Part shown: in pieces, positions 9,880-25,024 of the stretch | Position numbering within the stretch: position 1 is the stretch's first letter | Layout: every line of letters starts with the position of its first letter | From: a virus | Length of the DNA: 25,024 nt | Reading direction: 5' to 3' (one strand) | Virus record (IMG/VR): IMGVR_UViG_3300048113_000246 | Span: 1-25,024 of that record | The notes under the pieces: model-generated | Databases searched by the model: none | What the model saw: only the letters and a program-made list of their open reading frames with translations | What the model was told of the DNA's origin: nothing | Translations under genes and position numbers: made by a program

Positions 9880-10410
9880 TCACTCAGGACCAGAAAATTG
9901 GATCATTTCATCGTTATTATTTAGAGTAGTCGGACCAGTTTTTACGTATCCCGTAAATGTAGTCGCAGTTTTCTCCGTATATTCAATCAATTGTCTCGCG
10001 GCAGTGAAGATATGACCACTGGTCTCGAAACTTGATGTTGCAATTACATTAATGATGGTAGGATTCTCCGCATCCACTGATATAGTTTGGTTTCCATCTG
10101 CCATGGTGACTCCCATAATCATACTTGAAGGACCAGCATTGAACTTATCACCTGATAGAGTGAAGGTAGACTGTGGTCTCAATTCAAAATCTCTAATAGC
10201 AAGTTGCGGAAACGCTCTTTGAATATCTTCAATAACATGATCACCTTCAAATTTAATAAACTCAAAATCTCGTAGTGTGTATGTAACAGCACCACTAGTA
10301 AATGATGAAAATCCATCAGGGATTCTCTTTCCGAAATTAGTGACATCGATGGTGTTGCCATCTCTTTTTAAGACAGTTCTAAATCCTGCTGCTAATTGTA
10401 ATTCTGGCAT
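9880..10410 (-). CDS. Putative baseplate or virion structural protein, 176 aa
   Basis: The 176-residue protein begins MPELQLAAGFRTVLKRDGNT and contains RDFEFIKFEGDHVIEDIQRAFP near residues 47-68. The rest looks mostly beta, with IINVIATSSFETSGH and a GYVKTGPTTLNNNDE segment near the end. I do not recognise a named family. It has no signal peptide or membrane segment. It starts inside the stop of the giant gene (shared TAATG), which implies coupled translation, and ends just before the gp8 promoter. Its place between the gp7-position giant and gp8 suggests a small accessory wedge component. That role is inferred from context only. Confidence 0.75.
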   Translation of the reverse strand: MPELQLAAGFRTVLKRDGNTIDVTNFGKRIPDGFSSFTSGAVTYTLRDFEFIKFEGDHVIEDIQRAFPQLAIRDFELRPQSTFTLSGDKFNAGPSSMIMGVTMADGNQTISVDAENPTIINVIATSSFETSGHIFTAARQLIEYTEKTATTFTGYVKTGPTTLNNNDEMIQFSGPE

Positions 10411-13400
10411 TAGTTTCTAGTTTTAATTGATGTTTCTAGAACGACAAGTTCAGTATAGTAGTCAAGGACACCCATCTCTCTTTGTAGCATAACATCAGCA
10501 GGTTTTTCACGTCCTTCATGCTGTGGGAGATGTGCTCTCACAGTATATGTAGATGTTATAGATGGTCCAGCAGTAATTGCAATAGATTCAATCGTCGTGA
10601 GAGTAGCGACGATAGCAAGATCCAGTTGCTGTTGAATCTGCTTAGGTCCATCTTCAGACGAACCACCAAGAATACCACCATCAGCACCTCTTGGGAAGTC
10701 AACCAGAGCAGGAATGCTTTCTGGAGTTACAATTACTCTGGAGATTGTATTAGTCAACAGAGCATTCATAGATGCTTTAGCAGGTTGTGCCGCAGCGTAG
10801 AGTTCTGTGGTGATGTTTCCAGATACACTAGAGATTGCAGATACTGTTCTGAATCCTTCAAACTTAGTAATCTCAGTCTGAGTCTGAAGACCCAGTTCGA
10901 TATTGATCTGAACGTCAATCTCCGAGATCGTAGTCGTAGAGGCAATAGTAACAACGTCACTACTGATGGATTCTACACTAGCATTAATTTGCGTAATCTT
11001 ACTAACACTTCCAGCAATTTGCTCTGCACTTACGACAGTTGTTGGAGGAATGATTGTAATCTGCTTAGTAATGTCATAATCAAAGTATAGGTCAAGATCA
11101 AGATTTCTGGTAGACTGGATGAAACGATCATCCAACATTCTAACTTCAGTATCATGTGTTACTGTGTTAGTAACAACGATGACGGTCTCTGGAGAGATAG
11201 CGACGGTTTCTTGAGCAGGAGTAGCAATACTCCTGATTCCGACTTCGATAACTGGAGTGACGACAGGTGTAATAATCTGGAACTCGTTCTCAATCTCGAT
11301 GTAGCGAGCATCAGACTGTTTGATCTCCTGCTCACTGATAACTTGTGACTTAAGTTCAACCAACTGAGCGGAAGACATTCTGACTTCAGACTCAGTAATA
11401 AGGATAGTTGCAGGTCCAACAGGCAGGACAGTAACAAATTCAGGTAGAGTTCTAAGATACTGACCAGCATTATGTGCTTGTGCCGTAGATCCTTCAATAC
11501 CTCTAGTGAGATCAAGGAATCTGTCTCCAAGAGTAGAATTGTAAGCAACAATCTCTTTTCCGATCTGCAATTTGCCTTGCGATGGGAACAGACTTGTATT
11601 TCCAATATATGCAGTTGTTCCTGTTGGAGATAGAGGAGCATCGAGGAATGCACCTGTTACACTGTAGGTATCCTGAGCAGCATAAACAATAGGAGCATTG
11701 ATTTGCTTATGTAATGTCGATGTAATTACATCCACACCCATTTCAGGAGAGATATCTGTAATAACAGCAGTTGGTGAATCAAGAGTTACCGTAATAGTAA
11801 GTTCATTGATATTAAGTTCGGATGCAACCTGATCGAATGCGCCAGATGCTTCTCTCTTGGTATACTGATAGTATTCTGCTTTTCTAAGTTCTGTTCCTGC
11901 TTCGCGAGCAGTAGTATGGAGTTCTGTGATAAAGACAGAATCTGCCTTTACTTGGTCGCCAGCAAGACCACCAAGTGCAATAATAGAAAGAACACTAGAA
12001 ACAGCACCTTCGCCAGTCAACAGAATTTCTGTTTGAACAACAGATAAGGCACCACCACCTGCAACTTCCGTATTTACACTAATAATAGTTTCAGACTTAA
12101 CTACTCTAGTAGGATTCCTCTTAACAAAATATCCTCTAGTGACAACTACTTTGGGTGGTTGAGTATAACCAAAACCACCATTTGTTAATACAACATCTAG
12201 AACCTGTCCATCTTTCGTAAGAACTTCTGCTCTAGCACCACCACCATTACTATCAACAGGAACAAACTTGAGTTGTGGTGGAACAAAGTATTGATATGCT
12301 GTTGGTTGTAATAGAATACCAGTATTGAAGAATAGAGCAAGATCCCTCTTGTTCCACTCAAGATCATTAAATCCAAGAGAAACAACACGACCAGTTCCAT
12401 CAATTTGACTGGTTACGCTAAGACCCTCTCCTCTAACAATACCATTGTAATTACTTACATCGACTTTAGAGAAGTGCTCATACTTAGCAGTCTGACCCAA
12501 TCCAAAGTTTCTTAGATTTGCTTTACCAGGAACATACTCAATTGTTCTAAATTCATTCTCACCATCAACTAGGATTTCATCTCCAGCAATGATTTCCAAT
12601 TCAGTATTGTTTCTTATATCATATACTGAGTTTCCATTCTCAGAACCTCTCAACCATTCAGGAATATCTCTAGCAAGCAAACGCTTACCTTCATCATCTA
12701 CTGGATATGAAATATCAATCGAGAAAACACTGTTGATATTATTAAAAGAAATTGGATTCGAGAAATCTGCTTTATCGGAAACATAAATTGCAGAAACTCT
12801 AGTGTCATCAGCAGTATTTTGTGTTGGATCATATGACAACTCAGAAAAATCAATGTTCGATGCATTCAAAAGTGTGAATGTAAAATCAACTGGTGTTACA
12901 CCAATTTTTGAAGATCCATTTGCAGTTCCATCTTCAAGTTCATCAAATCTTATTAGAGAAATCTTTCCTAAGAGTTTTCTAGTTCCATCTGAAGTGATGG
13001 TAAACAAATTCTTAGGAGTAGTTGGATTGAAACTATACAATCTACTCTGGAATTCATTATATTCTTGATTTCCAGCAGATGTATCGATAACTCGCTGACA
13101 TCTAATAATAATCTCATTAGTAAGACCAACACGATCATAATCATAGAATGATAGAGTCTTGGGGACATCTCTACCATACAGAGAAATCAACCTTACATTG
13201 TTCTGAACTGATTGACCAGTTTCAGGAATGTAACGAGTAAGATTTGATGTGAATGTGATATTTGGACCATTGATTGTATAAGAGTCTGGATTTTGCAGAA
13301 CTCCATCAACAAACACCAAGACAAATCTGCCATCGGTGATGTTCTTGACTCTACCATCAACTTCACCAAAGATTAGATAAGGACCTGTTCCTCTATATGG

Positions 13401-16400
13401 AATCAAACGATTATCAATTTTGAATCTATCGTAACTACCGACTCCATAACCAAAGAAAGTCTCTCTTTGATCTAGTTGAACTGGAACAGGATCAATATCG
13501 TCTGCAAAGTTTCTAGGTGGTTCTGCAAATACAATCGCATCTGCTTGTGATCCATTTCTTCTTAAAATATAATATGCATTACCCAATGGTGCTTCTGCAG
13601 ACTCTTTTGCTTCTTGCAAAATGCCATTGATAAAGATCAATAATTTCTCACCAGGATCTGCCTTTACAGCAGTGCCATCTTCCCAATATAGATCAAACTG
13701 ATTCGCAATTCCATCAAAATTAGGAGAGATGTCCCTAAGTTTTCTTAGATAACGAGAGTTGAAAGTATCGTCTTTGAACTTAAATGCTTTACAGATTAGT
13801 GATGCAGATTCAGTCTCGTAAGTATCATCTAAGTTCTCTCCTGTTTGTGGGAAGAGAGGACCGAGAGGAGGTTCATTAAATGTTATCTGTGAACCAGATA
13901 CTTTAAATGATTTGCCAGGTTCCTGTGCAATTCCATTTATAGTAAGGAATAATTCTTGCTCATTGTATGGAGAGTATGCAAGATAGTTTGCTTTATCTAC
14001 AAGAGTAAATGTTTTTCTACCGAGAATGTTGCCATTACCAATGACACCTTCAACTACATCATATGCAGGAGATTTAACTTCGGTAATTTCAAGAGTAATA
14101 TAAGATGCTGCATTTTCGTAGAGAGTGATCTCATCACCAACCTCAAACTCATATGCAATATTAGAAAAGTCTGATTCAGTAGATTGAACCAATCCACCAA
14201 ACTCATAGTCATCACTGGAAGGACTATTAGTAAATTCACCAAATGAGAATAGGTAACCAATATCCATACGAATGATCTTGGTCAGATCAAAGATACCTGA
14301 CCCAGTAGTTACATACTCATCATTAGGAAGAATAGTGTAATTATCACTAGTATCCCAAGATTGGGTAGAAGAACCAGCACCAACAAAAGGACCAACAGCA
14401 GGTTGGTTGTTGCTGTTGCTTACAAGTTTAAATTTAATCCAGTGAGCATAAGCACCAGCTGGAACAGTTACCCCACCACTAAGAGAAGTGTAAACTAACG
14501 TGTTATCAGCTGCTTTAGTGATTGATCTGATAGAACCTACATAATCTTCCTTACTTGCATAACGACCAGTGAAAGGTTCTTGGATAGTTAGTTCTCTAGA
14601 AATAATTCCTTCAGTATCATACTCATCAATAGAGATAGAACCTTGACCTCTAATCAAGTTTGTATCTGCTACTGTTACAAAGGAATTAGTAACCCTTGTG
14701 CTCTTCCTCTCTACAGTTACTGTCTTAGGAGAAAGTTCAATATAACTGATAGATGTAGTAGGAGTCTGATCAGTCGGCATTGTTGCTTCCTGTTCAGAAT
14801 CAATCAGAACTTCACCGAACAGTTGGAAACCTGCAGGGTGTGTAGTCTGCTTGATTAGATCTCTCCATACATCAATAGCAGTTCTAGACTGAATGACATA
14901 TGAGAAGTCTTGATAGTAGTAAGAATCAGTTACCTTTTGATATCTACTACCAACCTTACCTTTATCAGATGCATATCTACCAAGATTGTCAAAATAGGTT
15001 CTGATATCAGAATCAAACTCAGTAAACAGAACATCAGATACTTCAATAGATCTACTAGGATCCATTGCAGAATAAAGATTTAGGGTGGTGTCTACAACGC
15101 CACTTACTTTATTAAGTCTAAGAATATTTGATCCTGTTCTCCAACCTTTGTCAGAAACATAACCACTGAAGATTAGTGAAGAACCAACACGCTGCTCTAC
15201 TCGCTCTCCCTTGTAGAACTTAGCATCTCCTTTGTAGATGATAGCGTAGTTTGATCTATAAGTAGACTCAATAGTCGCATCATTGTGGAAAGAACCGCCA
15301 TTACTGATAATGCTAATATCTTGTGGTAGACCGATGCTCTCAGATTCAAAGAATGCATCGATATCACCTTCATATACCGATACAATAGGAGCAAAGGTGA
15401 AACCACTGCCACCTGCTAAGACATCAATTCTAGTAATTCTTCCTTGATCGCTTACTACACTAAAGTGAGCACCAACGCCATCTCCATTGGTAACAACTGC
15501 TTTAGGATTGATGTAGTTCTTACCACCATTATCAATTTGAACACCTTTAATTGACTGAGTGATAGAATCCCACTCTACAGTCAGTAGTGGTTCGTTGTTA
15601 TCTGTTACAAGACAACCCTCAACAATAGGAGATCTCTTATATCCTTCTCCAAGATTATTAATTGTGGTCTTAGTGATCTTACCTTCAGCAAAAGGTGAAG
15701 ATGTTGTGTATATGATGTTGCCAGTTCCTTGATAATCAGGAACGTCAGGCAGCTGATATGCAAACTTTGTAGATGTTGTGAACTTAACTGTCTTAGGTCC
15801 AGTCAAAGGATCATCAATAACTTTCAATGAAGCACTATCTGTATTGACATCACTAGACGCCTTAATAAAGTAGTAATACGTGTCAAAGTTAACTGGGAAT
15901 CTCTGTTGAGCAAGACCAGAAATATTAGGACCAAAACCTAATGTGATAGCAACAAATGAACCAGCGTTTCCTGGTTGAATACCACTTATCTCTTTCTCTT
16001 CAGTAAAAATAGTTCCCGTTTTACTAGCAGAGAAATCAAGGAACACACCACTCATAGAAACATGACTGGTGTCAAACAAATAACGATAGTATTTCTGAAT
16101 ACGAATGTCAGTGTTTCTACCATACGTTGCAAAATTGACATCCTTAGAAAACTCTAAGTTGTTTTGACCAGCAGTAGATGAAGCAATATTGATAGACTTT
16201 CTAGGAGAACTATCATCCTGGAAAATACTACTGTTAGTAACTTCTCTAGGAGAGGGAGCATCATAGTTGTATGCTAGAGTTACCTCTTGAGTGGTTGCAT
16301 CATAATCAATAATATATGGATCATTGATACCATCGCCAAGAGGTCTTGAGTCTTCTTGGAATCTGTAGATGCCGTTATACAGTCTTACTGTAGTATTATC

Positions 16401-19400
16401 AAAGTGATTGGTGACAACAGTATCAAACTGTCCTCTTTGAACAGTAGCAGTTCTTGCATTATTGTCAATAGATGTGACTTTTACAATCTCGCTATTAATT
16501 TGCAGATAGTCATTCTCAGACAGTTTCTGAATACTTCTTAGTTGTAATACGGTGTTAGTTAAAGAGAAACCAACATGATCAACTTCCAATGCCAACCTTT
16601 GGGTTGAATTGGTAGAATCTAATCTATTGAGAGATGCATCAGCAACTGATAGGATGTCACCCTTAATGTAGTTCTGTCCTTTAGTTGTAACAGTAACTAT
16701 ACTGACACTGCCATATCCAGTATTGTTGTAGTCACTAACAACAATAGTTGCTTTCGCATTATCAGGATCTCCAACAGATCCAATATCAGTTCTTACCTTG
16801 CTTTGATCGAAAAAGATAAGTTCAACATCTTCATATGTTCCTGCTTGATATGCTATACCACCATTAAGAACTTCTGACTTGCCAACACCACTATCAGTCA
16901 TGACTGAAGTGAAAGAAGGTGCTCTCAGTGTAATCTGTTGATAGAATCTCTTTCTTACATAATAAGTTGTTGTAGTATCTGCCACACTAGGAATAAGATC
17001 CATATTTACAGCACTACCAACACCAACATTGTGTGGTTCGGATGTAGATACCAAAGCATAGTTGTTATCCACAACAAATGCTTGGATGTTCTTACTTAGT
17101 TCGTTGTAGATGACAACTTCTAGACCTACAGTATCTCCAAGAACTGTGCTCTGGAGAAAATAGTTCTTAGTAGCACTTTCAGGAACAACAAACTCTCCTT
17201 GAGTCACTTCGACTCTAATAGAGTTTTGGTTTGATACAGACTCAAGGACTCTACCTCTAGCAATGACATCATCATCGCCATCTGTTAAGAGTAGTGTTGC
17301 TTCTGCACTAAACGATCCATTACCAGACAAGATAATACTGATAATGTTGCTAGAAGAGTTTAAATTTTTGTCAGACTGATATGTTCCTGATACATTCTCA
17401 AGAACAAACTCATTTCTATTAGAAATGTCTCCGATAACCCTACCAGTGTAGTTGCTATCTTCTTGAGTAACAGTATCTCCTTCAAACAGATAGCAAGGGG
17501 CAATAGTCTCAATATAAGAGACTGCTAGAGTATTAGTAGGATCTAGATCATTTGATTTGAGTGATGTAACAGTCTTACCAGTAACCTCTGCGACAATCGC
17601 AGCTGCTCCAGATCCTTCGGTTCCAGTGTTATTAACAATGAATCTATTGCCAACTTTGAATGATGCTGGAGAATCCTCTACATTCAATGCAGAAATACTA
17701 CCACTAGTGGTTTTGTTGATCTTCAGAATAGTATTACCACCATTGCTAGGCATTCCTAGAGTTTTTAGTCTCTTGGCATACTTTGGTAAATCATCCTGAG
17801 ATAGATCTGCATTATAGTTAGAATCAACAGGTAGTGAGTAATAATTTGATCCTAGGATATATGGGAATGCAGGATCGCCATTAATATCGATAGTAATAAA
17901 GTATGCATAGACTCCTGCTGGATATTCTGGTGTTGCACAGAATCTTCCATTGTTTTCGTCTAATTCTAATTTACCAGTCTGAGTGCTAGGTCTCCACTCA
18001 TAATCTTCAATAAAAGTTCCAAGTGGGAACTCAGATGGATTTGGACCGCCAAGTCTGTTGCCCTTCAGATAATATGCTGATGACAGTCTGCTGACAGCAC
18101 TACTAGTGTCTAGAGGGTTCTCATAACCATAAGGACCATAAATTGGATTGCCATCATAAGCAAATCCTAAAATAGGAGAGTGTGAAGTTCCATCATCATT
18201 CAGATCAGTTCTAAGATCAGAAGGATTGGCAACAATACCATAACCATACCCTTTAGTAGGATTGTAGTTCTGGAATGCATAACCATTAGATGAGTCTAAC
18301 TCAGACTGCAGTTTCTTATAGCGATCTTTGGTATATGTAACGATATCAGATGTTGCTGCTGCTCCATCACCAACAGGTAGAATATCGACTATCACATTTC
18401 CTTTGGAGTAGAACTTACCTTCGTCTACTTGCTCAAAGTCAACAATTTTGCCATTTGCTAAAACAGTATTGTATTCTGCAAAACGACCTTTGCCAAGACG
18501 ATCGATAATTCTTACTGTAGGTGGTGTAGTGTAGTATTCACCAGCATCAATTACTTGAATACTTGTAATTCTACCAAAAGTAACAGTAGCAGATGCTTTT
18601 CCGTTTCTACCAGAAGTAATAGTTACAGTTGGTGGAACAGTATATACAGTCTGATCAAGAAGTTCAATACTGTCAACAACTTCACCTGCTAGGAAAGATC
18701 TTGCTCTTCCTGGAATATTGTTAATCAGAACATTAGGGGGATCCTGGAATCCAGCACCTTTTTGTGAAATATTGAACTTGGTGATAGGACCAAATTTGAC
18801 TTGATCAAAATCTCTATAACTGAAAGCAAGAGTTCCATCAACTAAGATGCCAACATCTCTTTGTGTTGTTTTATACGATTCAGTAATAACTTGAGGATTC
18901 TTACGAATCAACCTCATCGTCTTCTGATCTTGCAACTTCTGCTGAGTATTTGCAAGAAGAATAGGTCTAGTTGGGAAAGAAGACGAACAGATGTAGTAAT
19001 AGTTGCTATCTTCATAAACAGCAGCAACATCACCAGGCAGATCTCCAATCTGAGACTGAATAGTAGGATTTGCTGCTTCAGCATTCTCTTGACTCAGAAT
19101 CCAACGAATGGTATTCTGTGGAGTCATAATAATGGGATCTCTGGTCTCGAAACCTGCACCAGATACCTGAATGCGATCTCCTTCCTCAGAATAAGGAACA
19201 GGAGCATCAGTGCTCAAGTTATAAAGGACACCAAGGACTAGAAGCTTGACGTTTCCAGAGGTAACTGTAGAAAAACTGTAAACAGATTCTCCAGCAGCAT
19301 AAACAATATTGCTTTCTCTGTCGCTAACTAGAAACTGAGTGACACTTTTATCATTATACTCAAATTCTTCCCCACGGATTATAAATCTGCCTGTAGAAGA

Positions 19401-20396
19401 AAATCCTTCTGTGGAAAACACATTGATACGATCTCCAACAGTAAGACCATTATCAAAGTCTTCTGTTAACTCGGTTTTAGATGCAATCTTGAATGTATTG
19501 TTAATCGAAGACGTATCTAAAGCAATTTCATATAGTTGCTCTCCATCAACTGTGCCAGCACCGAAAACATTGTCTACAATACCAGATGCAAAACCTGCAT
19601 TGGGATTAAATGAGTCTATGCCTTGAACAATCTCTTCTCCAATGAGATCAGATACATTACCCGCTAAAACTTTTACTTTTAATGAGTAAGAGGTGATCCA
19701 ATCGGATGTGGATGCTTTTACAGTAAAATCTTTTGGTCTTACAACCTCTGGAGTGTCATTTCCTACCAGAGTGTTGAAAATAAACTTGATTGACCTATCA
19801 GTGCCTTTTGCACGATAGAAACTAGTAATATTCTTAATTAGAGTTCGCTTGTCTACCTTCTCATTCAGATACTTTTCTGGGAAGGATGCAAGGTAGTCAG
19901 ACTCAAAGTTCTTGACAATAGCATACAAGAACAGGTTGCTGATGTTCTGGACTGCCACACCTGAGTTGTGACCCACAGCAAGCGTTGTTACGAAGTTGCT
20001 TGCCTCGTATAGGTCACCTAGTTTTGTATTGCCACTGACTCCACGAGAGACATCACTGAGAGTGTTACCATTTCTCTCTTTGTAAAACAAGATCTCATCG
20101 TTAATCTTGATGTAACCATTTTCCACAGGGAAAGAAGATGCATCAATCAATTCAATAGTAGTATCACTCGCAGATACTGCTACTGCTAATTCTGTGCCTT
20201 GTGCTAGAAGACTTTTCTCATAAAAATCGATATCACGATATTTCGTGATATTCTGAATCACGTCGAGAGGTTGACCCCTAAGTTCTAACTGCTCGTAATA
20301 TTTCTCTACAACTTTAGAAAAATTTTCGTAGTCAGAAGAAATGAACTCAGGTAGTTGACTCTCGATTAGAGTGGATATTCTCCTAGTCTCTGCCAT
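10410..20396 (-). CDS. Giant baseplate structural protein in the gp7 position (VrlC-like cyanophage protein)
   Basis: One intact 3328-codon frame runs from an ATG six bases after the gp6 stop. Residues 1-260 are helical and wedge-like (LPEFISSDYENFSKVVEKYY, then TLIKNITSFYRAKGTDRSIK near 195), as expected for a protein that packs on gp6. A YHYH-like domain lies near 735-855 (AYDGNPIYGPYGY, NGRFCATPEYPAGVYAYF). GxGY...P beta motifs recur near 544, 580, 615, 1235, 1578, 1618, 1658 and 2735. Four fibre-like NG(I/V)xQxP units lie near 2149, 2249, 2356 and 2686. RG-containing modules occur near 80, 326, 1296 and 2929. The last 330 residues are rich in T, S, I and V. T4 gp7 is 1032 residues, so if equivalent this version is about threefold larger. 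Its wedge role is inferred from gene order; annotators of related phages have used the name VrlC. Confidence 0.85.
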   Translation of the reverse strand: MAETRRISTLIESQLPEFISSDYENFSKVVEKYYEQLELRGQPLDVIQNITKYRDIDFYEKSLLAQGTELAVAVSASDTTIELIDASSFPVENGYIKINDEILFYKERNGNTLSDVSRGVSGNTKLGDLYEASNFVTTLAVGHNSGVAVQNISNLFLYAIVKNFESDYLASFPEKYLNEKVDKRTLIKNITSFYRAKGTDRSIKFIFNTLVGNDTPEVVRPKDFTVKASTSDWITSYSLKVKVLAGNVSDLIGEEIVQGIDSFNPNAGFASGIVDNVFGAGTVDGEQLYEIALDTSSINNTFKIASKTELTEDFDNGLTVGDRINVFSTEGFSSTGRFIIRGEEFEYNDKSVTQFLVSDRESNIVYAAGESVYSFSTVTSGNVKLLVLGVLYNLSTDAPVPYSEEGDRIQVSGAGFETRDPIIMTPQNTIRWILSQENAEAANPTIQSQIGDLPGDVAAVYEDSNYYYICSSSFPTRPILLANTQQKLQDQKTMRLIRKNPQVITESYKTTQRDVGILVDGTLAFSYRDFDQVKFGPITKFNISQKGAGFQDPPNVLINNIPGRARSFLAGEVVDSIELLDQTVYTVPPTVTITSGRNGKASATVTFGRITSIQVIDAGEYYTTPPTVRIIDRLGKGRFAEYNTVLANGKIVDFEQVDEGKFYSKGNVIVDILPVGDGAAATSDIVTYTKDRYKKLQSELDSSNGYAFQNYNPTKGYGYGIVANPSDLRTDLNDDGTSHSPILGFAYDGNPIYGPYGYENPLDTSSAVSRLSSAYYLKGNRLGGPNPSEFPLGTFIEDYEWRPSTQTGKLELDENNGRFCATPEYPAGVYAYFITIDINGDPAFPYILGSNYYSLPVDSNYNADLSQDDLPKYAKRLKTLGMPSNGGNTILKINKTTSGSISALNVEDSPASFKVGNRFIVNNTGTEGSGAAAIVAEVTGKTVTSLKSNDLDPTNTLAVSYIETIAPCYLFEGDTVTQEDSNYTGRVIGDISNRNEFVLENVSGTYQSDKNLNSSSNIISIILSGNGSFSAEATLLLTDGDDDVIARGRVLESVSNQNSIRVEVTQGEFVVPESATKNYFLQSTVLGDTVGLEVVIYNELSKNIQAFVVDNNYALVSTSEPHNVGVGSAVNMDLIPSVADTTTTYYVRKRFYQQITLRAPSFTSVMTDSGVGKSEVLNGGIAYQAGTYEDVELIFFDQSKVRTDIGSVGDPDNAKATIVVSDYNNTGYGSVSIVTVTTKGQNYIKGDILSVADASLNRLDSTNSTQRLALEVDHVGFSLTNTVLQLRSIQKLSENDYLQINSEIVKVTSIDNNARTATVQRGQFDTVVTNHFDNTTVRLYNGIYRFQEDSRPLGDGINDPYIIDYDATTQEVTLAYNYDAPSPREVTNSSIFQDDSSPRKSINIASSTAGQNNLEFSKDVNFATYGRNTDIRIQKYYRYLFDTSHVSMSGVFLDFSASKTGTIFTEEKEISGIQPGNAGSFVAITLGFGPNISGLAQQRFPVNFDTYYYFIKASSDVNTDSASLKVIDDPLTGPKTVKFTTSTKFAYQLPDVPDYQGTGNIIYTTSSPFAEGKITKTTINNLGEGYKRSPIVEGCLVTDNNEPLLTVEWDSITQSIKGVQIDNGGKNYINPKAVVTNGDGVGAHFSVVSDQGRITRIDVLAGGSGFTFAPIVSVYEGDIDAFFESESIGLPQDISIISNGGSFHNDATIESTYRSNYAIIYKGDAKFYKGERVEQRVGSSLIFSGYVSDKGWRTGSNILRLNKVSGVVDTTLNLYSAMDPSRSIEVSDVLFTEFDSDIRTYFDNLGRYASDKGKVGSRYQKVTDSYYYQDFSYVIQSRTAIDVWRDLIKQTTHPAGFQLFGEVLIDSEQEATMPTDQTPTTSISYIELSPKTVTVERKSTRVTNSFVTVADTNLIRGQGSISIDEYDTEGIISRELTIQEPFTGRYASKEDYVGSIRSITKAADNTLVYTSLSGGVTVPAGAYAHWIKFKLVSNSNNQPAVGPFVGAGSSTQSWDTSDNYTILPNDEYVTTGSGIFDLTKIIRMDIGYLFSFGEFTNSPSSDDYEFGGLVQSTESDFSNIAYEFEVGDEITLYENAASYITLEITEVKSPAYDVVEGVIGNGNILGRKTFTLVDKANYLAYSPYNEQELFLTINGIAQEPGKSFKVSGSQITFNEPPLGPLFPQTGENLDDTYETESASLICKAFKFKDDTFNSRYLRKLRDISPNFDGIANQFDLYWEDGTAVKADPGEKLLIFINGILQEAKESAEAPLGNAYYILRRNGSQADAIVFAEPPRNFADDIDPVPVQLDQRETFFGYGVGSYDRFKIDNRLIPYRGTGPYLIFGEVDGRVKNITDGRFVLVFVDGVLQNPDSYTINGPNITFTSNLTRYIPETGQSVQNNVRLISLYGRDVPKTLSFYDYDRVGLTNEIIIRCQRVIDTSAGNQEYNEFQSRLYSFNPTTPKNLFTITSDGTRKLLGKISLIRFDELEDGTANGSSKIGVTPVDFTFTLLNASNIDFSELSYDPTQNTADDTRVSAIYVSDKADFSNPISFNNINSVFSIDISYPVDDEGKRLLARDIPEWLRGSENGNSVYDIRNNTELEIIAGDEILVDGENEFRTIEYVPGKANLRNFGLGQTAKYEHFSKVDVSNYNGIVRGEGLSVTSQIDGTGRVVSLGFNDLEWNKRDLALFFNTGILLQPTAYQYFVPPQLKFVPVDSNGGGARAEVLTKDGQVLDVVLTNGGFGYTQPPKVVVTRGYFVKRNPTRVVKSETIISVNTEVAGGGALSVVQTEILLTGEGAVSSVLSIIALGGLAGDQVKADSVFITELHTTAREAGTELRKAEYYQYTKREASGAFDQVASELNINELTITVTLDSPTAVITDISPEMGVDVITSTLHKQINAPIVYAAQDTYSVTGAFLDAPLSPTGTTAYIGNTSLFPSQGKLQIGKEIVAYNSTLGDRFLDLTRGIEGSTAQAHNAGQYLRTLPEFVTVLPVGPATILITESEVRMSSAQLVELKSQVISEQEIKQSDARYIEIENEFQIITPVVTPVIEVGIRSIATPAQETVAISPETVIVVTNTVTHDTEVRMLDDRFIQSTRNLDLDLYFDYDITKQITIIPPTTVVSAEQIAGSVSKITQINASVESISSDVVTIASTTTISEIDVQINIELGLQTQTEITKFEGFRTVSAISSVSGNITTELYAAAQPAKASMNALLTNTISRVIVTPESIPALVDFPRGADGGILGGSSEDGPKQIQQQLDLAIVATLTTIESIAITAGPSITSTYTVRAHLPQHEGREKPADVMLQREMGVLDYYTELVVLETSIKTRN

Positions 20397-20402
20397 TTAA
20401 GC

Positions 20403-22211
20403 TTACTCTGTGTAAATCGTGAATGAACTCTTTGGAATATCAACATCGAGATAAACCTCTCTCGACGCACTAATATCATTGCTTAGTGGGATAGTTCTCA
20501 CTTCGATTCGATTATCGAAGAAACTACCTTCAATAACTGTCAGATCATAAAGTTTGATCTCTCCCTTAATATAATCAACCGTTCCAACAGAGTCGTTTAA
20601 AACGATTTTCTCACCTGAGATAGAGTCTATTCTATATAGGACGATTTTACCAGAGCGATCTTCGAGATAGACTGTCCAGAGAGGATATTCACTTACTTTG
20701 AAACCTGTTGACTGGACAATTACATCCTCATCACAAGTATTATCGAAAGCATTTTGGAAACATAGTTCGTAGAAGAACTTACTATTGATCTGAGGATAAA
20801 AATCCTTTCTCATTTTCACAGTGGTAAGATTACTGTTAATACTACGATCAGCATCATCAATTACACCAACAAACTTAGAGAATCTAAACTTGCCATTAAA
20901 CTTCTCTGTATCAGAAGATGCAATGTATGCTTCTAGACCACCGAGAACCTTAGACTTAATCTCATCTCTAGTCTGATTGGTCTTTTCTTTAGAATAGTAA
21001 ATATTGGACTTTAGTTCAACATACAAAATAGAAGCATCGATGACATCAGGAGTGATGGATGCCACCATGTATGGTTTCAGTTTATCTACAATCTCTTTTT
21101 TAGTTACAGAACTCAATCTACGTGCAGTAGATGGTTTGACAACAATCTTGACCTTACCATACTCAGGGGGATCATCCTCTTCACCACCAAATGTAATGAT
21201 ATCAGCAATAGCAGGATAGATCTCTCTTACAATTGCTGCATAGTCTTGTGCCGTGACTGCTCTGTTCTGTGTTCCATAGAACTTAGGAGCATTAAACTTG
21301 ATCTTAGAAACAGATTCGATCTCTGCGCCCCCTAATGCCGCCTCTACGAGGTCTGTAGCAGCAGAGTAGTCAACAGTGTAGTTTAGGTTAGAATCGCCTG
21401 CAGGGGTTTCTATGATGCCATTGAAGGTGAATGCTCTTGCTCCGTTAGCATCAGGACCATTCGTTGACAGATATGTAATTTCTACTTGGTTACCAGACTC
21501 TAGTTGTCTACCTAGGACACCATCACCAAAAAATACTTCATACTGCTCATCTTCGGTTTCCTCAACATAGAAAACACTTGACTCACTCGTAATGTCTAGG
21601 ATACTATCTGCTCTCGCATATATCTCTCCTAAAGTGCTTTGTGCAGATGCGAAAATACGGACTCTAAGGGACGAAACGTCTGCATTGGGGTTCTTGATCA
21701 CAAAACGGTTTGATCGTGCTGCATTAACCGTATAGGTGTCAGTGATGAAGTTTCCTTCGTAAATATCGATGCTATCAAAAGTTCCGATGTTATTAATAAC
21801 AGGAACCTTAATGTCCTCAACCGCTACAAAATTGTATACGCTACCATCAAATGTAGAATTGAAACCTGTTCCTTTTCTTAGAACGATTTCATTCGGTGCA
21901 GTGTTTGGAAATGTTATTCTAAAAGACAACTTTGCCTTTGGTGATGTTGCTGACTTGGGAGTGTAACCCAATTGCTTCGCCAGCGCCACCACATTGTCCC
22001 TGAGCGTTGCCGAATCAAGGAACGTCTCGTTCACCACCATATTAGTGTTGAACGCTGTATAATACGTATTATATGCCAATACGTCGAGAAGGTTCGACCA
22101 TACAGAACCTTCAAAATCAAAATCAGTAAACTCTCCCTGCGATCTCAAGTATTCCTTGAGAGCAGTCTTGATATCTGCAAAGTCTAGGTTTGATAGTTGA
22201 ACGTATGGCAT
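20403..22211 (-). CDS. gp6: Baseplate wedge protein gp6 (baseplate J-like)
   Basis: This is the wedge protein that in T4 forms the inner ring of the baseplate with gp7, gp53 and gp25. At 602 residues it is close to T4 gp6 (660). The N-terminus (MPYVQLSNLDFADIKTALKE) and LLDVLAYNTYYTAFNTNMVV are typical of T4-like marine phage gp6. FGDGVLGRQL near 227 is the baseplate-J signature region. FYGTQNRAVTAQDYAAIVRE near 310-330, followed by FGGEEDDPPEYGKVKI, is the conserved C-terminal core. The ATG lies within the gp25 stop (TAATG), so translation is probably coupled. The giant gene follows after six bases. Confidence 0.95.
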   Translation of the reverse strand: MPYVQLSNLDFADIKTALKEYLRSQGEFTDFDFEGSVWSNLLDVLAYNTYYTAFNTNMVVNETFLDSATLRDNVVALAKQLGYTPKSATSPKAKLSFRITFPNTAPNEIVLRKGTGFNSTFDGSVYNFVAVEDIKVPVINNIGTFDSIDIYEGNFITDTYTVNAARSNRFVIKNPNADVSSLRVRIFASAQSTLGEIYARADSILDITSESSVFYVEETEDEQYEVFFGDGVLGRQLESGNQVEITYLSTNGPDANGARAFTFNGIIETPAGDSNLNYTVDYSAATDLVEAALGGAEIESVSKIKFNAPKFYGTQNRAVTAQDYAAIVREIYPAIADIITFGGEEDDPPEYGKVKIVVKPSTARRLSSVTKKEIVDKLKPYMVASITPDVIDASILYVELKSNIYYSKEKTNQTRDEIKSKVLGGLEAYIASSDTEKFNGKFRFSKFVGVIDDADRSINSNLTTVKMRKDFYPQINSKFFYELCFQNAFDNTCDEDVIVQSTGFKVSEYPLWTVYLEDRSGKIVLYRIDSISGEKIVLNDSVGTVDYIKGEIKLYDLTVIEGSFFDNRIEVRTIPLSNDISASREVYLDVDIPKSSFTIYTE

Positions 22212-22603
22212 TATCGAGTTCTCTCTAGGAAGAATTCTATGGCGACAGGAAAGTCTTCTCTACCAATAATTTCAAATTCTAAAGCAACGTCAAATCCATT
22301 GTCGTCAAAATTAGTATCAACTTCTAAACCAGTAACCGTAATTCTTGGTTCAAACTGATCTAGAGTCTGACGAATGTCATCGCCAATTTCAGCAGCAGTC
22401 GCCACATCTAGGTGCTCAAATAGTAAATTACGAAGATTAGACCCCAGATCTGGTTGAAATGGTCTCTCGCCCTTTGAGGTAAGCAGCAAATTGACGACTG
22501 CTTGTTTAATTGCAGCATCATCCTTCTTGACAATTAAGTCACCTGTTACAGGATGGGGTTTGAACGTTACATTCAAATCCTTGAAGGTCTGAAACTTTGC
22601 CAC
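22211..22603 (-). CDS. gp25: Baseplate wedge protein gp25
   Basis: The 130-residue protein matches the GPW/gp25 family in length (T4 gp25 has 132) and motifs: KPHPVTGDLIVKKDDAAIKQ, VVNLLLTSKGERPFQPDLGS, LRNLLFE, and a C-terminal IEFFLERTR. In T4 gp25 sits at the junction of wedge and sheath, and relatives exist in R-pyocins and type VI secretion. The start is read as GTG at 22601-22603 because it directly precedes AKFQTF and no better ATG is present. No strong Shine-Dalgarno site is seen. A late promoter-like motif ends 24 bases upstream, suggesting this gene may open its own late transcript. Confidence 0.93.
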   Translation of the reverse strand: MAKFQTFKDLNVTFKPHPVTGDLIVKKDDAAIKQAVVNLLLTSKGERPFQPDLGSNLRNLLFEHLDVATAAEIGDDIRQTLDQFEPRITVTGLEVDTNFDDNGFDVALEFEIIGREDFPVAIEFFLERTR

Positions 22604-22627
22604 ACGAATAGTAGAGTGTATCTTATC

Positions 22628-22635
22628 TATTTAGC
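22628..22635 (-). promoter_or_regulatory. Late promoter-like GCTAAATA before gp25
   Basis: The minus strand reads GCTAAATA, overlapping the stop codon of the 48-residue gene, and its end is 24 bases before the gp25 GTG. It shares CTAAATA with the motif before the DUF4815 gene. The same 7-mer also occurs by chance inside the 176-aa gene (near 9919), so position is the main support. Confidence 0.35.
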
Positions 22636-22777
22636 AGCCCATCAAATTATCTAGTCGCTTTCTTTCTTCTTTCAATTTCTCAGACTTCTTCAACCAATAG
22701 TCGCTAGCAGGTTGAGTGATAAGTGTCATTCCTGATCTTACAAACTTGTCGCCAAGGTCTGTGGGACTATTTGCCAT
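22631..22777 (-). CDS. Small conserved-style protein, 48 aa
   Basis: The ATG at 22775-22777 has a good Shine-Dalgarno site (AGGAG, eight bases away) and the frame runs 48 residues to a TAA. The sequence starts MANSPTDLGDKFVRSGMTL and ends in a charged helix (WLKKSEKLKEERKRLDNLM). There is no cysteine pair, signal or membrane segment. It overlaps the end of the upstream gene by 11 bases and lies just before gp25, which points to co-expression with baseplate genes. I do not know its function. The ribosome site and phage-style overlap make it a credible gene despite its size. Confidence 0.7.
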   Translation of the reverse strand: MANSPTDLGDKFVRSGMTLITQPASDYWLKKSEKLKEERKRLDNLMGC

Positions 22778-23204
22778 TGATAATTCTCCTATAAAGTGTT
22801 GGTGACCAATATTGATAATAATCAGTCTTGTGTAATTGTTCTCTTGCCTTCTCTAATTTATCACGCTTTTGAATGAGTAACAAGTTTCCTTCATTAAAGT
22901 TACTTTGCACTCCATTAATATGTGTTGCGTCATCCATATGATCATCAAGCGCATAGTATACACTTTGACTCATATTAATTTCCGCAACCCGTTGCATCAG
23001 AGCGCATTCAGAGATATCGTCCTCCAAAATGTAGACTATCACGTCCGCATTTGGTAATGAACTCAGAGTCACACGCCGTAAGGCACGCTCCTCTATATGA
23101 ACAGACGCAGAAAAAGCGTAGGGACATATGGCATGACCACCTAGATCCCCACGCTGCTCAGAAATATATTTAATCCATTCCTTAACTCTACTTACCTTGT
23201 CCAC
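22767..23204 (-). CDS. Protein of unknown function, about 145 aa, with CPYA motif
   Basis: The frame ends RRIINGK at a TAG inside the start of the 48-aa gene. The start is uncertain. A GTG at 23202-23204 gives 145 residues and a 17-base overlap with the upstream 47-aa gene; an ATG at 23241-23243 would give 158 and a 56-base overlap. The N-terminal half reads VKEWIKYISEQRGDLGGHAI then CPYAF, faintly recalling the W...LCPFA pattern of DUF1415 proteins. The middle is beta/alpha (ADVIVYILEDD), and the C-terminus is a charged helix (LLLIQKRDKLEKAREQLHKT) with DYYQYW after it. No catalytic set can be assigned, and the DUF1415 resemblance is weak. Confidence 0.65.
   Translation of the reverse strand: MDKVSRVKEWIKYISEQRGDLGGHAICPYAFSASVHIEERALRRVTLSSLPNADVIVYILEDDISECALMQRVAEINMSQSVYYALDDHMDDATHINGVQSNFNEGNLLLIQKRDKLEKAREQLHKTDYYQYWSPTLYRRIINGK
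22786..22790 (-). promoter_or_regulatory. Shine-Dalgarno site for the 48-aa gene
   Basis: AGGAG on the minus strand lies eight bases before the ATG at 22777. It is one of few clear Shine-Dalgarno sites in the window and fixes the start of this small gene. Confidence 0.7.
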
Positions 23205-23331
23205 GATACATTTTCTTTTTACTATTTCTGCTAGTGGCAGCATACTTCGTGTGCTTCCCACAACCCTGTCGGGTCTTCTTGGGAGTTGGTTCGATAAATG
23301 TGCCACCAGTCAGTGAAGGACGCTTTGCCAT
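23188..23331 (-). CDS. Very basic small protein, 47 aa
   Basis: A 47-residue frame starts at ATG 23329-23331: MAKRPSLTGGTFIEP, then KKTRQGCGKHTKY and a C-terminal KKKMYRGQGK. It has 13 Lys/Arg and a single Glu, so it is strongly cationic and could bind nucleic acid or a polyanionic partner. I recognise the KRPSL...GGTF...KKTRQG...YRGQGK pattern from small proteins in T4-like marine phages, but no function that I know of. It is embedded in the baseplate-side gene run, with a possible extended -10 promoter just upstream. The overlapping frame of the next gene hides it from simple ORF calling. Confidence 0.75.
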   Translation of the reverse strand: MAKRPSLTGGTFIEPTPKKTRQGCGKHTKYAATSRNSKKKMYRGQGK

Positions 23332-23355
23332 GGGTTTTCTTTGAACGACTCACAT

Positions 23356-23364
23356 ATTATAGCA
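23356..23364 (-). promoter_or_regulatory. Possible extended -10 promoter (TGCTATAAT)
   Basis: The minus strand reads TGCTATAAT, an exact extended -10 element for the host sigma-70-type polymerase, 24 bases before the ATG of the 47-aa gene. No convincing -35 element is visible. It overlaps the small palindrome AGCATA-AG-TATGCT at the end of the PAAR-like gene. It may be a host-polymerase promoter or coincidence. Confidence 0.3.
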
Positions 23365-23367
23365 TAC

Positions 23368-23763
23368 TTATGCTGCTGCTGCACCACCTGCAGCTGCTCC
23401 CGCACCAGTCTGAAACTGCACTGATGACGGGGCAAACGGTGCAGTCAGTGGTCTCGGTGATCCTGCAATAAATGCTTCATCCCCTTGCAGTGCTGGTTTT
23501 AACTTTTGAATGTAGATCGACTTGTTAATCAGAGTCTTGATAATCCTTGTGCCACCTGTAGGATCAATACATCCTGGTGGTGTTGCAATGGGAACCCCTG
23601 GCACTGGAGTAACAGGAGTCCCCTCTGCAAAGAATGGTGTAGGTTTCTTGTCCATAAAGATCCCTGCCTTCACTGGAGTCCCCTTCAGTGGCGCTGCAGC
23701 AAACGTGCAAGTAGCATTGGTGCTCACAGTATCCATTGTAGTTGGAATCGCTAGTGCTGGCAT
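23368..23763 (-). CDS. PAAR-like baseplate spike-tip protein
   Basis: The 131-residue protein is rich in Pro, Gly and Ala and has evenly spaced short beta segments. The stretch near residues 79-95 (LINKSIYIQKLKPALQGDEA) fits the PAAR/PAAR-like pattern of a strand, an NGKP-like turn and GD; TPPGCIDPTGG (about 61-71) would be the preceding loop. PAAR proteins cap the central spike of contractile tails and type VI systems (T4 gp5.4). There are two cysteines (19 and 65) and no histidine, so the usual three-His, one-Cys zinc site is absent. The C-terminus is an unusual Gly/Ala-only run after residue 119. It overlaps the upstream gene by 13 bases. The family call is moderate; a different small tail protein is possible. 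Confidence 0.6.
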   Translation of the reverse strand: MPALAIPTTMDTVSTNATCTFAAAPLKGTPVKAGIFMDKKPTPFFAEGTPVTPVPGVPIATPPGCIDPTGGTRIIKTLINKSIYIQKLKPALQGDEAFIAGSPRPLTAPFAPSSVQFQTGAGAAAGGAAAA

Positions 23764-23975
23764 AACTTGTGATCTAGGTGAACCTTAGAGTCCCTTGCAG
23801 TCATCTCTGCAACTGCACGAACCTCCTGTAACTGTATATATGTGTCATTCAGAAAGTCTACAAGGTTTTCATGTTCCTCAGATCCTGGACGACGATACAT
23901 CAGCGGTCCAGGTGTCTCAACTTCCTTCAGTCTCTTCTCCAAGGAATTCAACTTCACTTGTAGTTCTTGCTCCAT
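23751..23975 (-). CDS. Small putative coiled-coil protein, 74 aa
   Basis: The ATG at 23973-23975 is preceded by AAGGAA ten bases away. The first 18 residues (MEQELQVKLNSLEKRLKE) have heptad-like leucine spacing and suggest a short coiled coil. After a PGPLMYRRPG turn, residues 38-70 are mostly helical and charged. The stop overlaps the PAAR-like start by 13 bases, and the start lies 59 bases inside the preceding gene. No family is recognised. The position suggests a small tail or assembly factor, but that is only inferred. Confidence 0.65.
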   Translation of the reverse strand: MEQELQVKLNSLEKRLKEVETPGPLMYRRPGSEEHENLVDFLNDTYIQLQEVRAVAEMTARDSKVHLDHKLCQH

Positions 23976-24171
23976 TTTTAAAACTTTCCTTATAATTTAT
24001 ACCGTATGCCCCGAAGGCACTCGAAACATCAATTTCAGGTGCTGCGTCAGCAGCCCCAAAATAGTCCGTCGCAGCATCTTCGATTGCATCGGCAAATTCA
24101 TTGAACTCGTCGAACCTTTGTTCCTTTAGAACACCGTCCTTCGTCTTGTAAGTGATTTTGTGTTGTTCCAT
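23917..24171 (-). CDS. Small acidic protein, 84 aa
   Basis: The ATG at 24169-24171 is chosen over an upstream in-frame start because GAGGAG lies five bases before it and it directly follows the stop of the 37-aa gene. The protein reads MEQHKITYKTKDGVLKEQRF, then an acidic Asp/Glu/Ala-rich centre (DAIEDAATDYFGAADAAPE), and ends EVEFLGEETEGS. No family is recognised. Its last 59 bases also encode the start of the 74-aa gene in another frame, a long overlap even for a phage. That leaves a small chance that its C-terminal end is misread. Confidence 0.65.
   Translation of the reverse strand: MEQHKITYKTKDGVLKEQRFDEFNEFADAIEDAATDYFGAADAAPEIDVSSAFGAYGINYKESFKNGARTTSEVEFLGEETEGS
23994..24001 (-). promoter_or_regulatory. 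Late promoter-like TATAAATT
   Basis: The minus strand reads TATAAATT, seven of eight bases of the T4 late consensus, 18 bases before the ATG of the 74-aa gene. It lies inside the coding frame of the 84-aa gene, so it may be incidental. Confidence 0.25.
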
Positions 24172-24173
24172 GA

Positions 24174-24287
24174 TTACTCCTCGTCGAATATTGAGAATAC
24201 ACTGCTCCACACTGAGTGGAAAAATACATATAGGAAGAATTTACCTTCCTGGTCCCTATTACGTTTCTTCGCAGGTGCTCTAGTCAT
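24174..24287 (-). CDS. 37-residue hydrophobic peptide, possible membrane microprotein
   Basis: A 37-codon frame starts at ATG 24285-24287, two bases after the TAG of the 43-aa frame, with GAGG nearby upstream. Its stop is two bases from the next ATG. The peptide has a strongly basic N-terminus (MTRAPAKKRNRDQ), a hydrophobic aromatic core (FFLYVFFHSVWSSVFSIF, residues 17-34) and an acidic end (DEE). This layout suits a single membrane-crossing or amphipathic segment with the N-terminus inside. No family is known to me. Tight coupling on both sides is the main support for it being translated. Confidence 0.5.
   Translation of the reverse strand: MTRAPAKKRNRDQEGKFFLYVFFHSVWSSVFSIFDEE
24177..24182 (-). 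promoter_or_regulatory. Shine-Dalgarno site for the 84-aa gene
   Basis: GAGGAG on the minus strand, within the last codons of the 37-aa gene, is five bases from the ATG at 24171. It is the strongest ribosome site in the cluster and decides the start of the 84-aa gene. Confidence 0.7.
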
Positions 24288-24288
24288 A

Positions 24289-24420
24289 CTATACCTCAGG
24301 GGATTTTTTTATATAGTTCTGAATACCTGTTACTATGTTACTTCTCAGGATACTCTCAGTTTCTTTGAGACATAGCATAATATAACTAATCTCTTCCCTA
24401 AATGTTGTCAAGGGTTTCAT
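24289..24420 (-). CDS. Small peptide, 43 aa, first gene after late promoter
   Basis: The frame starts at ATG 24418-24420 and ends at a TAG that abuts the next ATG (TAGTATG). It reads MKPLTTFREEISYIMLCLKE, then TESILRSNIVTGIQNYIKKS, with an amphipathic helix-like pattern. The open frame extends upstream to 24489, but that version would read through the late-promoter motif, so the shorter form is preferred. There is no clear Shine-Dalgarno site and no recognised family. Only the stop/start coupling with the next small gene supports it. Confidence 0.4.
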   Translation of the reverse strand: MKPLTTFREEISYIMLCLKETESILRSNIVTGIQNYIKKSPEV

Positions 24421-24466
24421 GGCAAAATTTTCTGGGGCGATTTTTTTATATTGGAGGGACCCGAAG

Positions 24467-24474
24467 TATTTATC
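24467..24474 (-). promoter_or_regulatory. T4-type late promoter GATAAATA
   Basis: The minus strand reads GATAAATA, an exact fit to the cyanophage late form NATAAATA. It lies in the largest non-coding gap of the window (24421-24571), downstream of a terminator-like hairpin and upstream of the small-gene run. It is the best candidate for the start of the structural transcript. Confidence 0.6.
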
Positions 24475-24547
24475 TCGCTTGGGTAACACTTTGTAGGTTA
24501 GAGTAGGCGTAGGAGTCCCGCTCGGCGTTCAGGGGGTATACATTAAG

Positions 24548-24566
24548 GGGGGCATTAACTGCCCCC
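24548..24566 (-). terminator. Hairpin after the HicA-like gene
   Basis: A perfect 7-bp stem, GGGGGCA with TGCCCCC and a 5-base loop, begins five bases after the stop of the HicA-like gene. On the minus strand it is followed by CTTAATGT, a weak T tract. It likely ends or processes the upstream transcript before the late-promoter gap. Confidence 0.55.
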
Positions 24567-24571
24567 TGTGT

Positions 24572-24778
24572 TTAACTTAGTGCTGCCACTGATCTTCTAC
24601 ATTGTCTCTTAATCTGTGCCAATGCGTAGTTATCGCTTGGTGTCTTTGAGCATGTCTGAATGATACCTAGATCAGGGTGTTTGTATTTCAAATGCTTGGA
24701 ATCGTCAAAGAAAACAAATCCATACTCATCCATGATGGCATCAACTGCCTTCCTATACTTTCCGAGTTGTTTAGACAT
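24572..24778 (-). CDS. Small HicA-fold protein (HicA-like), 68 aa
   Basis: The 68-residue frame starts at ATG 24776-24778. After a helix (KYRKAVDAIMDEYGF) comes DDSKHLKYKHPDLGIIQTC, which lines up with the GSH-(hydrophobic)-(F/Y)(R/K)HP...(V/I)T core of HicA mRNA interferases, placing His29 at the catalytic histidine. The last helix (NYALAQIKRQCRRS) matches the HicA C-terminal helix. HicA toxins have a dsRNA-binding-like fold and cleave mRNA. No HicB-like antitoxin frame is adjacent, so it may be a solo RNA-binding or interferase-like phage protein. The Shine-Dalgarno site is poor. A longer upstream in-frame extension overlaps the neighbouring gene and is rejected. Confidence 0.65.
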   Translation of the reverse strand: MSKQLGKYRKAVDAIMDEYGFVFFDDSKHLKYKHPDLGIIQTCSKTPSDNYALAQIKRQCRRSVAALS

Positions 24779-24803
24779 AGTGTGTGTGGGGTTAGTGTAA
24801 AGA

Positions 24804-24820
24804 AAGGGGGGCGACCCCTT
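24804..24820 (-). terminator. Hairpin after the YETWN-motif gene
   Basis: AAGGGG and CCCCTT form a perfect 6-bp stem around a 5-base loop. On the minus strand this is followed by TCTTTAC, mildly T-rich. The stem overlaps the stop codon of the gene it would terminate. It resembles the hairpin after the next gene. Confidence 0.45.
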
Positions 24821-25024
24821 AGAGTTCTGCCAGCATCTCATCCATCTCATCGGTGTCGATGTCGTCGTGCAACCATGCCACGCCGTCGCCCGTGATATAC
24901 TCACCGAACTCATCGATGAATCGCTTCGCCCACTTGCGATACCCAAGGTTCTTGTTCTCCTTGGCATGGCGGTAGATCATCTCCTCATTGCCGATCCAAA
25001 GAGCGACGTTCCATGTTTCGTAGG
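24819..25024 (-). CDS. Small phage protein with YETWNVALWI motif (5' end beyond window)
   Basis: Sixty-seven residues plus a stop are visible; the start lies past the right edge. The visible part begins YETWNVALWIGNEEMIYRHA, a motif I recognise from small proteins common in phages, especially cyanophages, with no established function. It continues with a basic helix (GYRKWAKRFIDEFGEYI) and ends in an acidic tail (DDIDTDEMDEMLAEL). Base composition here is visibly more GC-rich than in the baseplate genes. It ends at a hairpin and is followed by the HicA-like gene, so the two probably belong to a different expression class from the structural genes. Confidence 0.75.
   Translation of the reverse strand, partial: YETWNVALWIGNEEMIYRHAKENKNLGYRKWAKRFIDEFGEYITGDGVAWLHDDIDTDEMDEMLAEL

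Follow-up and report, generated by a model that had tools for sequence, protein, structure and literature searches.

A lone HicA-like protein of T4-like cyanophages with a conserved histidine and no detectable HicB partner

The DNA analyzed here, referred to as the window, is a virus record of 25 kb (25,024 nucleotides) from a T4-like cyanophage. Its segment from 20403 to 25024 shows 93.6% DNA identity to Prochlorococcus phage Syn1, some S-RIM44 records being equally close, and Synechococcus is the recorded host of both phages. On the minus strand at 24572-24778, an open reading frame (ORF) with an ATG at 24778 and a stop codon ending at 24572 encodes a HicA-like protein of 68 amino acids, designated P0001, which belongs to PHROGs family phrog_2053. 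The protein is basic (12 K + R versus 7 D + E) and its translation contains the core SKHLKYKHP with the histidine as residue 29. In Syn1 the annotated start precedes the matching ATG by 44 codons, resulting in a protein of 110 amino acids; similarity among relatives of P0001 starts near residue 4-7, and we therefore favored the start giving 68 amino acids. Relatives are encoded at 57 loci in viral contigs, and a tblastn search with P0001 at E ≤ 1 identified 79 phage records, all of them cyanobacterial phages by name. Comparison with the window copy gave dN/dS ratios of 0.13-0.36 in 11 of 12 pairings, the twelfth showing saturated synonymous sites. Hence, the ORF at 24572-24778 is a real gene.

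The baseplate wedge genes gp25 (22211-22603) and gp6 (20403-22211), both encoded on the minus strand, form a structural cluster at 20403-22603 as identified with Pfam, PHROGs, and the comparison with Syn1. The first clear gene downstream of the HicA-like gene (23917-24210, minus strand) was assigned with PHROGs to phrog_9448, a family of unknown function, and lies in the unit leading to gp25 and gp6. The upstream neighbor (24819-24980, minus strand) encodes a protein of 53 amino acids, which belongs to phrog_871 and weakly matches DUF7249. Two further ORFs were observed on the minus strand. A single ORF of 3,328 amino acids at 10410-20396 adjoins gp6, and its Syn1 homologue is annotated as "hypothetical protein", T4-LIKE GC 826. 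An ORF of 66 amino acids with a GTG start at 24289-24489 gave a best family match no better than E 0.3; it contains a late-promoter match and may be spurious or have a later start, although an equally long ORF, Syn1_086, is annotated at this position in Syn1.

A terminator-like hairpin with a GGGGC-loop-GCCCC core is located at 24548-24566 (minus strand), starting 5 bases past the stop codon of the HicA-like gene. It is followed at 24467-24474 (minus strand) by the motif GATAAATA, which matches the cyanophage late promoter, defined as NATAAATA with the core ATAAATA (PMC2984593). Both features were first noticed in 13 chosen loci (13/13 and 12/13, respectively) and then counted in the 41 loci that represent the window's clade among the 57 viral loci, many of them near copies of each other. 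The hairpin core was present in all 41, and ATAAATA was found within 700 bases past the gene in 39, being missing in L031 and L041. Alignment of the 13 loci revealed that the stem is kept, whereas the loop varies in length and the tail is more or less T-rich, less markedly in the window than in most relatives. The distance of the motif past the gene was about 83-142 bases in 11 of the 12 loci carrying it and 350 bases in one. Upstream of the gene, no late motif was found in the 13 loci within 400 bases (246 bases in the window). Across the whole window, three late-promoter matches were found versus 5.1 expected, a number not above chance. A simple promoter and terminator scan returned nothing usable for the HicA-like gene, the hairpin tail failing the tail rule of the scan. 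Because a hairpin follows the stop codon and a late motif precedes the baseplate genes, the HicA-like gene appears to be the last of the preceding unit and to stand outside the baseplate unit. An earlier sequence-only reading had placed it next to the structural operon, which holds by position; the two signals nevertheless separate it from the structural unit. From this layout, expression would be early or middle.

P0001 matched phrog_2053, a PHROGs family without assigned function, over nearly its full length (E 6.5e-24, residues 5-66 on positions 5-67 of a profile of 72). The sequence-only reading had proposed a HicA toxin fold, and this was checked by profiles and by structure. The Pfam profile HicA_toxin (PF07927) matched P0001 with 14.9 bits (E 0.03), which is under the cut-off of 27; the S-H35-type sister proteins of cyanophages exceeded this cut-off with 30.5 bits (L057) and 33.6 bits (L116), and 24 of the 42 family members were matched at E ≤ 1, the best at E 5e-7. 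Pfam is no strict test for phage HicA proteins, because Adephagia gp91, a proven toxin, remained without any match and LeBron gp82 reached 15.1 bits. The PADLOC HicA-like model matched P0001 at E 4.2e-5; since it misses E. coli HicA, this match alone cannot tie P0001 to classical HicA. Furthermore, the PHROGs toxin family phrog_353 matched L057 at 8.6e-9. Profile-profile comparison gave 96.5% for the cyanophage family versus a wider phage family and 96.1% for the wider phage family versus classical HicA, whereas direct comparison of the cyanophage family with seven classical HicA-type proteins reached only 62.8%. A search of NCBIfam yielded no useful match, the family profile found no HicA among the sequences of solved structures (one chance match, E 2), and no relative was found when genome contigs were searched with the profile of the family alignment. 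L057 as a single query retrieved two viral loci, one of which was its own record.

Two weak matches were recorded in addition. The profile Phage_T4_Gp30_7 was matched by three of the 42 members, L052 among them, with a best E of 0.043, a faint hint that T4 gp30.7 might have the same fold as the HicA-like family. The S-PM2 record contains a second weak phrog_2053 match at G001:C1:6246-6377 (L123; E 0.02, profile positions 2-44), which is possibly a diverged paralogue or due to chance.

An AlphaFold model built from 41 sequences (mean pLDDT 83.7, pTM 0.68) shows the order helix-three strands-helix, with helices at residues 7-18 and 50-65 and strands at 22-25, 30-33, and 40-43. Foldseek comparison with the PDB placed HicA-family chains at ranks 1, 2, 3, 5, and 9, the top three being chains of two entries, with weak E-values of 0.2-0.7, none of them ≤0.001. 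In VIA-align 2, ranks 1-5 were all occupied by HicA-family entries (5yrz, 6g26, 4p78, 4c26, and 1whz; Z 6.5, 6.4, 6.2, 5.2, and 5.1; 53-57 residues aligned) and unrelated chains followed at Z 5.0, a Z below 8 being possibly a sign of a common arrangement. A search of viral models returned HicA-like names at ranks 6, 8, 29, and 44 among the best 50 rows. P0001 is predicted, at modest scores, to have the dsRBD-like arrangement of the HicA fold. Sister proteins above the Pfam cut-off, the PADLOC match, and the best matches of the modelled fold agree, and on these grounds P0001 is almost certainly kin to HicA, as the earlier reading had suggested.

The histidine singled out in that reading proved to be conserved. 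All 42 aligned relatives have His29, the most distant of them at 30% identity, and so do all of five further relatives (L096, L097, L116, L249, and L250). These 42 rows consist of the window protein, Syn1 (L059), and 40 of the 57 viral loci. Among the other 17 loci, 14 duplicate a retained row over the compared stretch and three (L015, L036, and L037) are truncated at the end of a contig. L096 and L097 lie outside this alignment and were reached by a separate locus search. In the model, His29 is located in the turn before strand 2, and it aligns with His23 of E. coli HicA. This residue and its equivalents are described as important for RNase activity or toxicity (review PMC11594946), and His29 is a putative catalytic histidine. 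The stretch SKTPSDNYA (residues 44-52) forms the loop from strand 3 to helix 2 and is likewise found in 42 of 42 rows; this count is biased, because peptide patterns across that stretch were among the means by which the viral loci had been collected. The histidine count is less biased, because the distant loci lack the single pattern that includes the histidine. Other relatives show the variants SKTPSDKYA (L250), SKTPSDRYG (L116), and SATPSDNYA (L096 and L097). Owing to the gathering bias and these variants, conservation of SKTPSDNYA was set aside as a stand-alone proof. The conserved blocks of the P0001 family map to that end of BpsHicA which holds the turn between strands 1 and 2 and the loop from strand 3 to helix 2, the end at which catalysis and the contacts to substrate and antitoxin are proposed to take place (Butt et al., PMC3969222). 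P0001 has D-S-K at positions 26-28 and thus no glycine at the second or third residue ahead of the histidine, and the family mostly has D/E/Q, S/T, and K/N there; a glycine occurs two residues before the histidine in L057 and three before it in E. coli HicA.

The statement of the sequence-only reading that neither neighbor looks like HicB was borne out, as Pfam and PHROGs revealed no HicB similarity in either of them. Beyond the locus, HicB was undetected in seven cyanophage records, the window's own genome being covered as a 25 kb record only. The HicB-like family phrog_8245 was absent from all seven and was found in the Adephagia control; PF15919 and PF05534 were absent from six cyanophage records, one of them of 150 kb. 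PF15919 was also negative in 18 of 18 records including that of Adephagia, whose known HicB it missed, so that only the phrog_8245 search has a positive control. Comparison of 17 loci (the window and 16 relatives, about 3 kb per side where present) revealed the HicA-like gene as the sole family common to all. It lies upstream of the baseplate genes in one cyanophage clade, and a helicase-annotated gene is nearby in nine of 10 loci of the other. In several loci of the latter clade, phrog_818 (function unknown) was observed at up to about 0.8 kb from the HicA-like gene (L060:4186-4572, L249:2241-2714, and L051:2657-2971). A type II HicAB system is recognized by an hicB that is adjacent or elsewhere in the genome; judged by profile searches, neither was detected for the HicA-like gene.

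An outward search starting from L116 led to proteins named "HicA-like toxin" of Arthrobacter and Microbacterium phages with weak E-values (0.03 and 7), and further relatives were found in Mycobacterium, Gordonia, Pseudomonas, Ruegeria, and Komagataeibacter phages. In the resulting alignment A6 the histidine is present in 19 of 20 rows, seven of which are from cyanophages, the exception being L245. The loop of the non-cyanophage proteins reads exactly TPSD in six of 14, is a close variant (such as TPSE, TASD, SASD, or TPNC) in seven, and is looser in L245. These TPSD-type proteins, among them Ottawa gp35, Coltrane gp27, WhoseManz gp7, Adawi gp84, Sour gp71, and an unannotated protein of Astolliot, resemble P0001 in the histidine (12 of 13 rows of A6), the TPSD-like loop, and a basic end of helix 2. 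They also resemble it with respect to the antitoxin: phrog_8245 was unmatched in 20 of 21 records with such proteins (seven cyanophage and 14 other records), that is, HicB was undetected in 13 of the 14 others. The exception is Gordonia phage Skog, which has a phrog_8245 match about 13 kb away. The cyanophage branch differs by its longer signature SKTPSDNYA..Q..RQ.RR, whereas the others mostly show TPSD.R(S/A).KN..(A/S).LRR. In Gordonia phage Sour (L248), a gene for a DNA-binding protein at 1157-1693 (minus strand) runs opposite to the HicA-like gene and overlaps the end of the latter, and the DNA-binding protein is a candidate non-HicB partner in that clade.

Classical HicA proteins (PF07927, COG1724; E. 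coli HicA, BpsHicA, and Y. pestis HicA3) share with P0001 their size, the predicted helix-three strands-helix order, the basic composition, and a histidine just before strand 2 (SNHLKL in E. coli and SKHLKY in P0001). Unlike them, P0001 has no detected HicB, carries SKTPSD in place of P-x-H in the loop from strand 3 to helix 2, shows Q..RQ.RR in helix 2, and lacks the glycine before the histidine. Adephagia gp91/gp90 and LeBron gp82 provide a second comparison as HicA-like proteins borne by phages, gp82 being also described as an orphan; both gp91 and gp82 differ from P0001 in having no TPSD loop, and Adephagia has a HicB partner. Gp91 was reported to be strongly toxic in M. smegmatis; in alignments its H31 falls on the catalytic residue, and one of the substitutions recovered when gp90 was missing is H31R (PMC11373665). 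Within cyanobacterial phages, a HicAB system has been reported for Planktothrix phage PaV-LD (PMC6293099).

We propose that P0001 is a lone RNA-acting protein of the HicA superfamily, most likely a ribonuclease using His29, which is made before the late phase; we assign this reading as a whole a probability of roughly 0.5. P0001 would act on RNA alone, without a partner. Cleavage would involve three elements: His29 at the turn leading into strand 2, the SKTPSD loop, and helix 2 with its basic residues R58, R61, and R62. Being made before the late phase, the protein would cut host and/or early phage transcripts, as T4 RegB does, and, in place of an antitoxin, the timing and strength of its expression would keep its amount in check. 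T4 RegB is a small phage ribonuclease which is made early and has no antitoxin; the likeness to P0001 holds if the ribonuclease reading is true, and to our knowledge no relation exists between the two. The parts of this proposal differ in strength. The predicted binding of RNA is probable, putative RNA cleavage is slightly favored, and a putative role in the turnover of host or early mRNA is put forward tentatively. The sequence-only reading had offered a host-mRNA shut-off factor and a dsRNA-binding regulator as possible roles.

P0001 might instead be a catalytically silent protein of HicA fold, limited to binding structured RNA (or a protein) and thereby, for example, protecting or regulating phage transcripts. 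The orphan LeBron gp82 was non-toxic upon overexpression in M. smegmatis, a result for which its authors allow differences in expression (PMC13148394), and TTHA1913 (1WHZ), one of the fold matches of P0001, is thought to be a non-toxic HicA homologue (PMC3969222). Furthermore, P0001 lacks the P-x-H that classical HicA has in the loop beside the presumed active site, and it has no counterpart of a glycine which is important in BpsHicA (G22, two residues before H24) and has been noted in gp91 (G28, three residues before H31; PMC11594946, PMC11373665); by position, E. coli HicA corresponds to gp91. However, pure binding would not obviously need a histidine that is kept in all aligned relatives down to 30% identity and almost throughout the rows from unrelated phages. 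We consider a silent binder fairly unlikely.

It is improbable that P0001 acts as the toxin in a toxin-antitoxin pair with some other protein, unlike HicB, or an RNA as its antitoxin. In the window the next gene upstream belongs to phrog_871, a family that occurs in eight of the 17 compared loci, and the overlapping gene of Sour would suit such a pair as well. Seven of these eight loci belong to the window's clade, however, and phrog_871 was not found in nine of the 10 loci of the other clade; where present, it is about 200 to more than 1,000 bases away from the HicA-like gene and once lies downstream. No family other than that of P0001 is common to all 17 loci, and an addiction module would presumably be of little use to a virulent T4-like phage.

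The sequence-only reading had also suggested an interference with HicAB modules of the host. P0001 would then be a decoy for the HicB of the host or disturb these modules in some other way. Host genomes were reached via phage psbA in a second scan of genome contigs. A HicA fold could in principle bind HicB, and in the wider host family HicA was matched above the cut-off in 86 of 251 sampled genomes; matches were obtained for RCC307 (one), WH5701 (one), and SynAce01 (six, four of them above the cut-off). In the genus of Synechococcus WH7803, by contrast, HicA at E ≤ 0.001 was unmatched in 29 of 31 genomes and found in two, and HicB_lk, a model that is not very sensitive, was matched in one and unmatched in 30. 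WH7803 itself, the recorded host of S-PM2 and S-M1, which both carry the gene, has no HicA match. Because HicA and HicB_lk are lacking from nearly all genomes of this genus, interference with host HicAB is unlikely, though conceivable for some hosts given the HicA carriers of the wider family; moreover, the altered loop belongs to the end thought to meet the antitoxin, and a decoy function is very improbable. Searching the 251 genomes of the host family with phrog_2053 yielded six weak partial matches (E 0.0018-0.0082). Among L225, L226, and L229, which were read for the motif, only L226 showed a TPSD reading. This ORF, on a short contig of a host-family genome, has the motifs HLKIK and TTPSD, and a TPSD-type HicA-like protein may thus lie in a cyanobacterial bin or in a co-binned phage contig.

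An accidental resemblance to HicA of some other small alpha-beta fold with a different function is the least probable explanation of all: P0001 alone falls under the Pfam cut-off and its fold scores are modest, but Pfam via the relatives, PADLOC, phrog_353, profile comparison, and the model all agree on HicA.

Orphan HicA-like proteins of phages are as such not new, because many actinobacteriophage records already carry the label "HicA-like toxin" with no antitoxin named. Gerdes (2024; PMC10865869) describes 14 contexts of HicA domains; a term search of the text gave no hit for "orphan", "without HicB", or "TPSD", and "solitary" refers there to hicB and vapC alone. Among the titles and abstract openings retrieved from the open literature, none dealt with this cyanophage HicA-like family. 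New here is the combination of a HicA-type fold and histidine with a different loop, no detected HicB, and relatives in several phage groups. Extending the proposal of a lone ribonuclease, the TPSD-loop proteins could form a distinct antitoxin-free HicA lineage of stand-alone ribonucleases which serve host or early-mRNA turnover in unrelated phages, TPSD replacing the loop by which classical HicA meets both RNA and HicB. This extension is speculative, and we rate it as unlikely.

With these results, phrog_2053, now listed as "unknown", gains a testable function, and P0001 points to a branch of HicA that is apparently without antitoxin and spread over several phage groups. If active, the protein would be a new means by which phages control RNA while infecting abundant marine cyanobacteria; an inactive protein would show that a toxin fold has been converted into a mere RNA-binding component.
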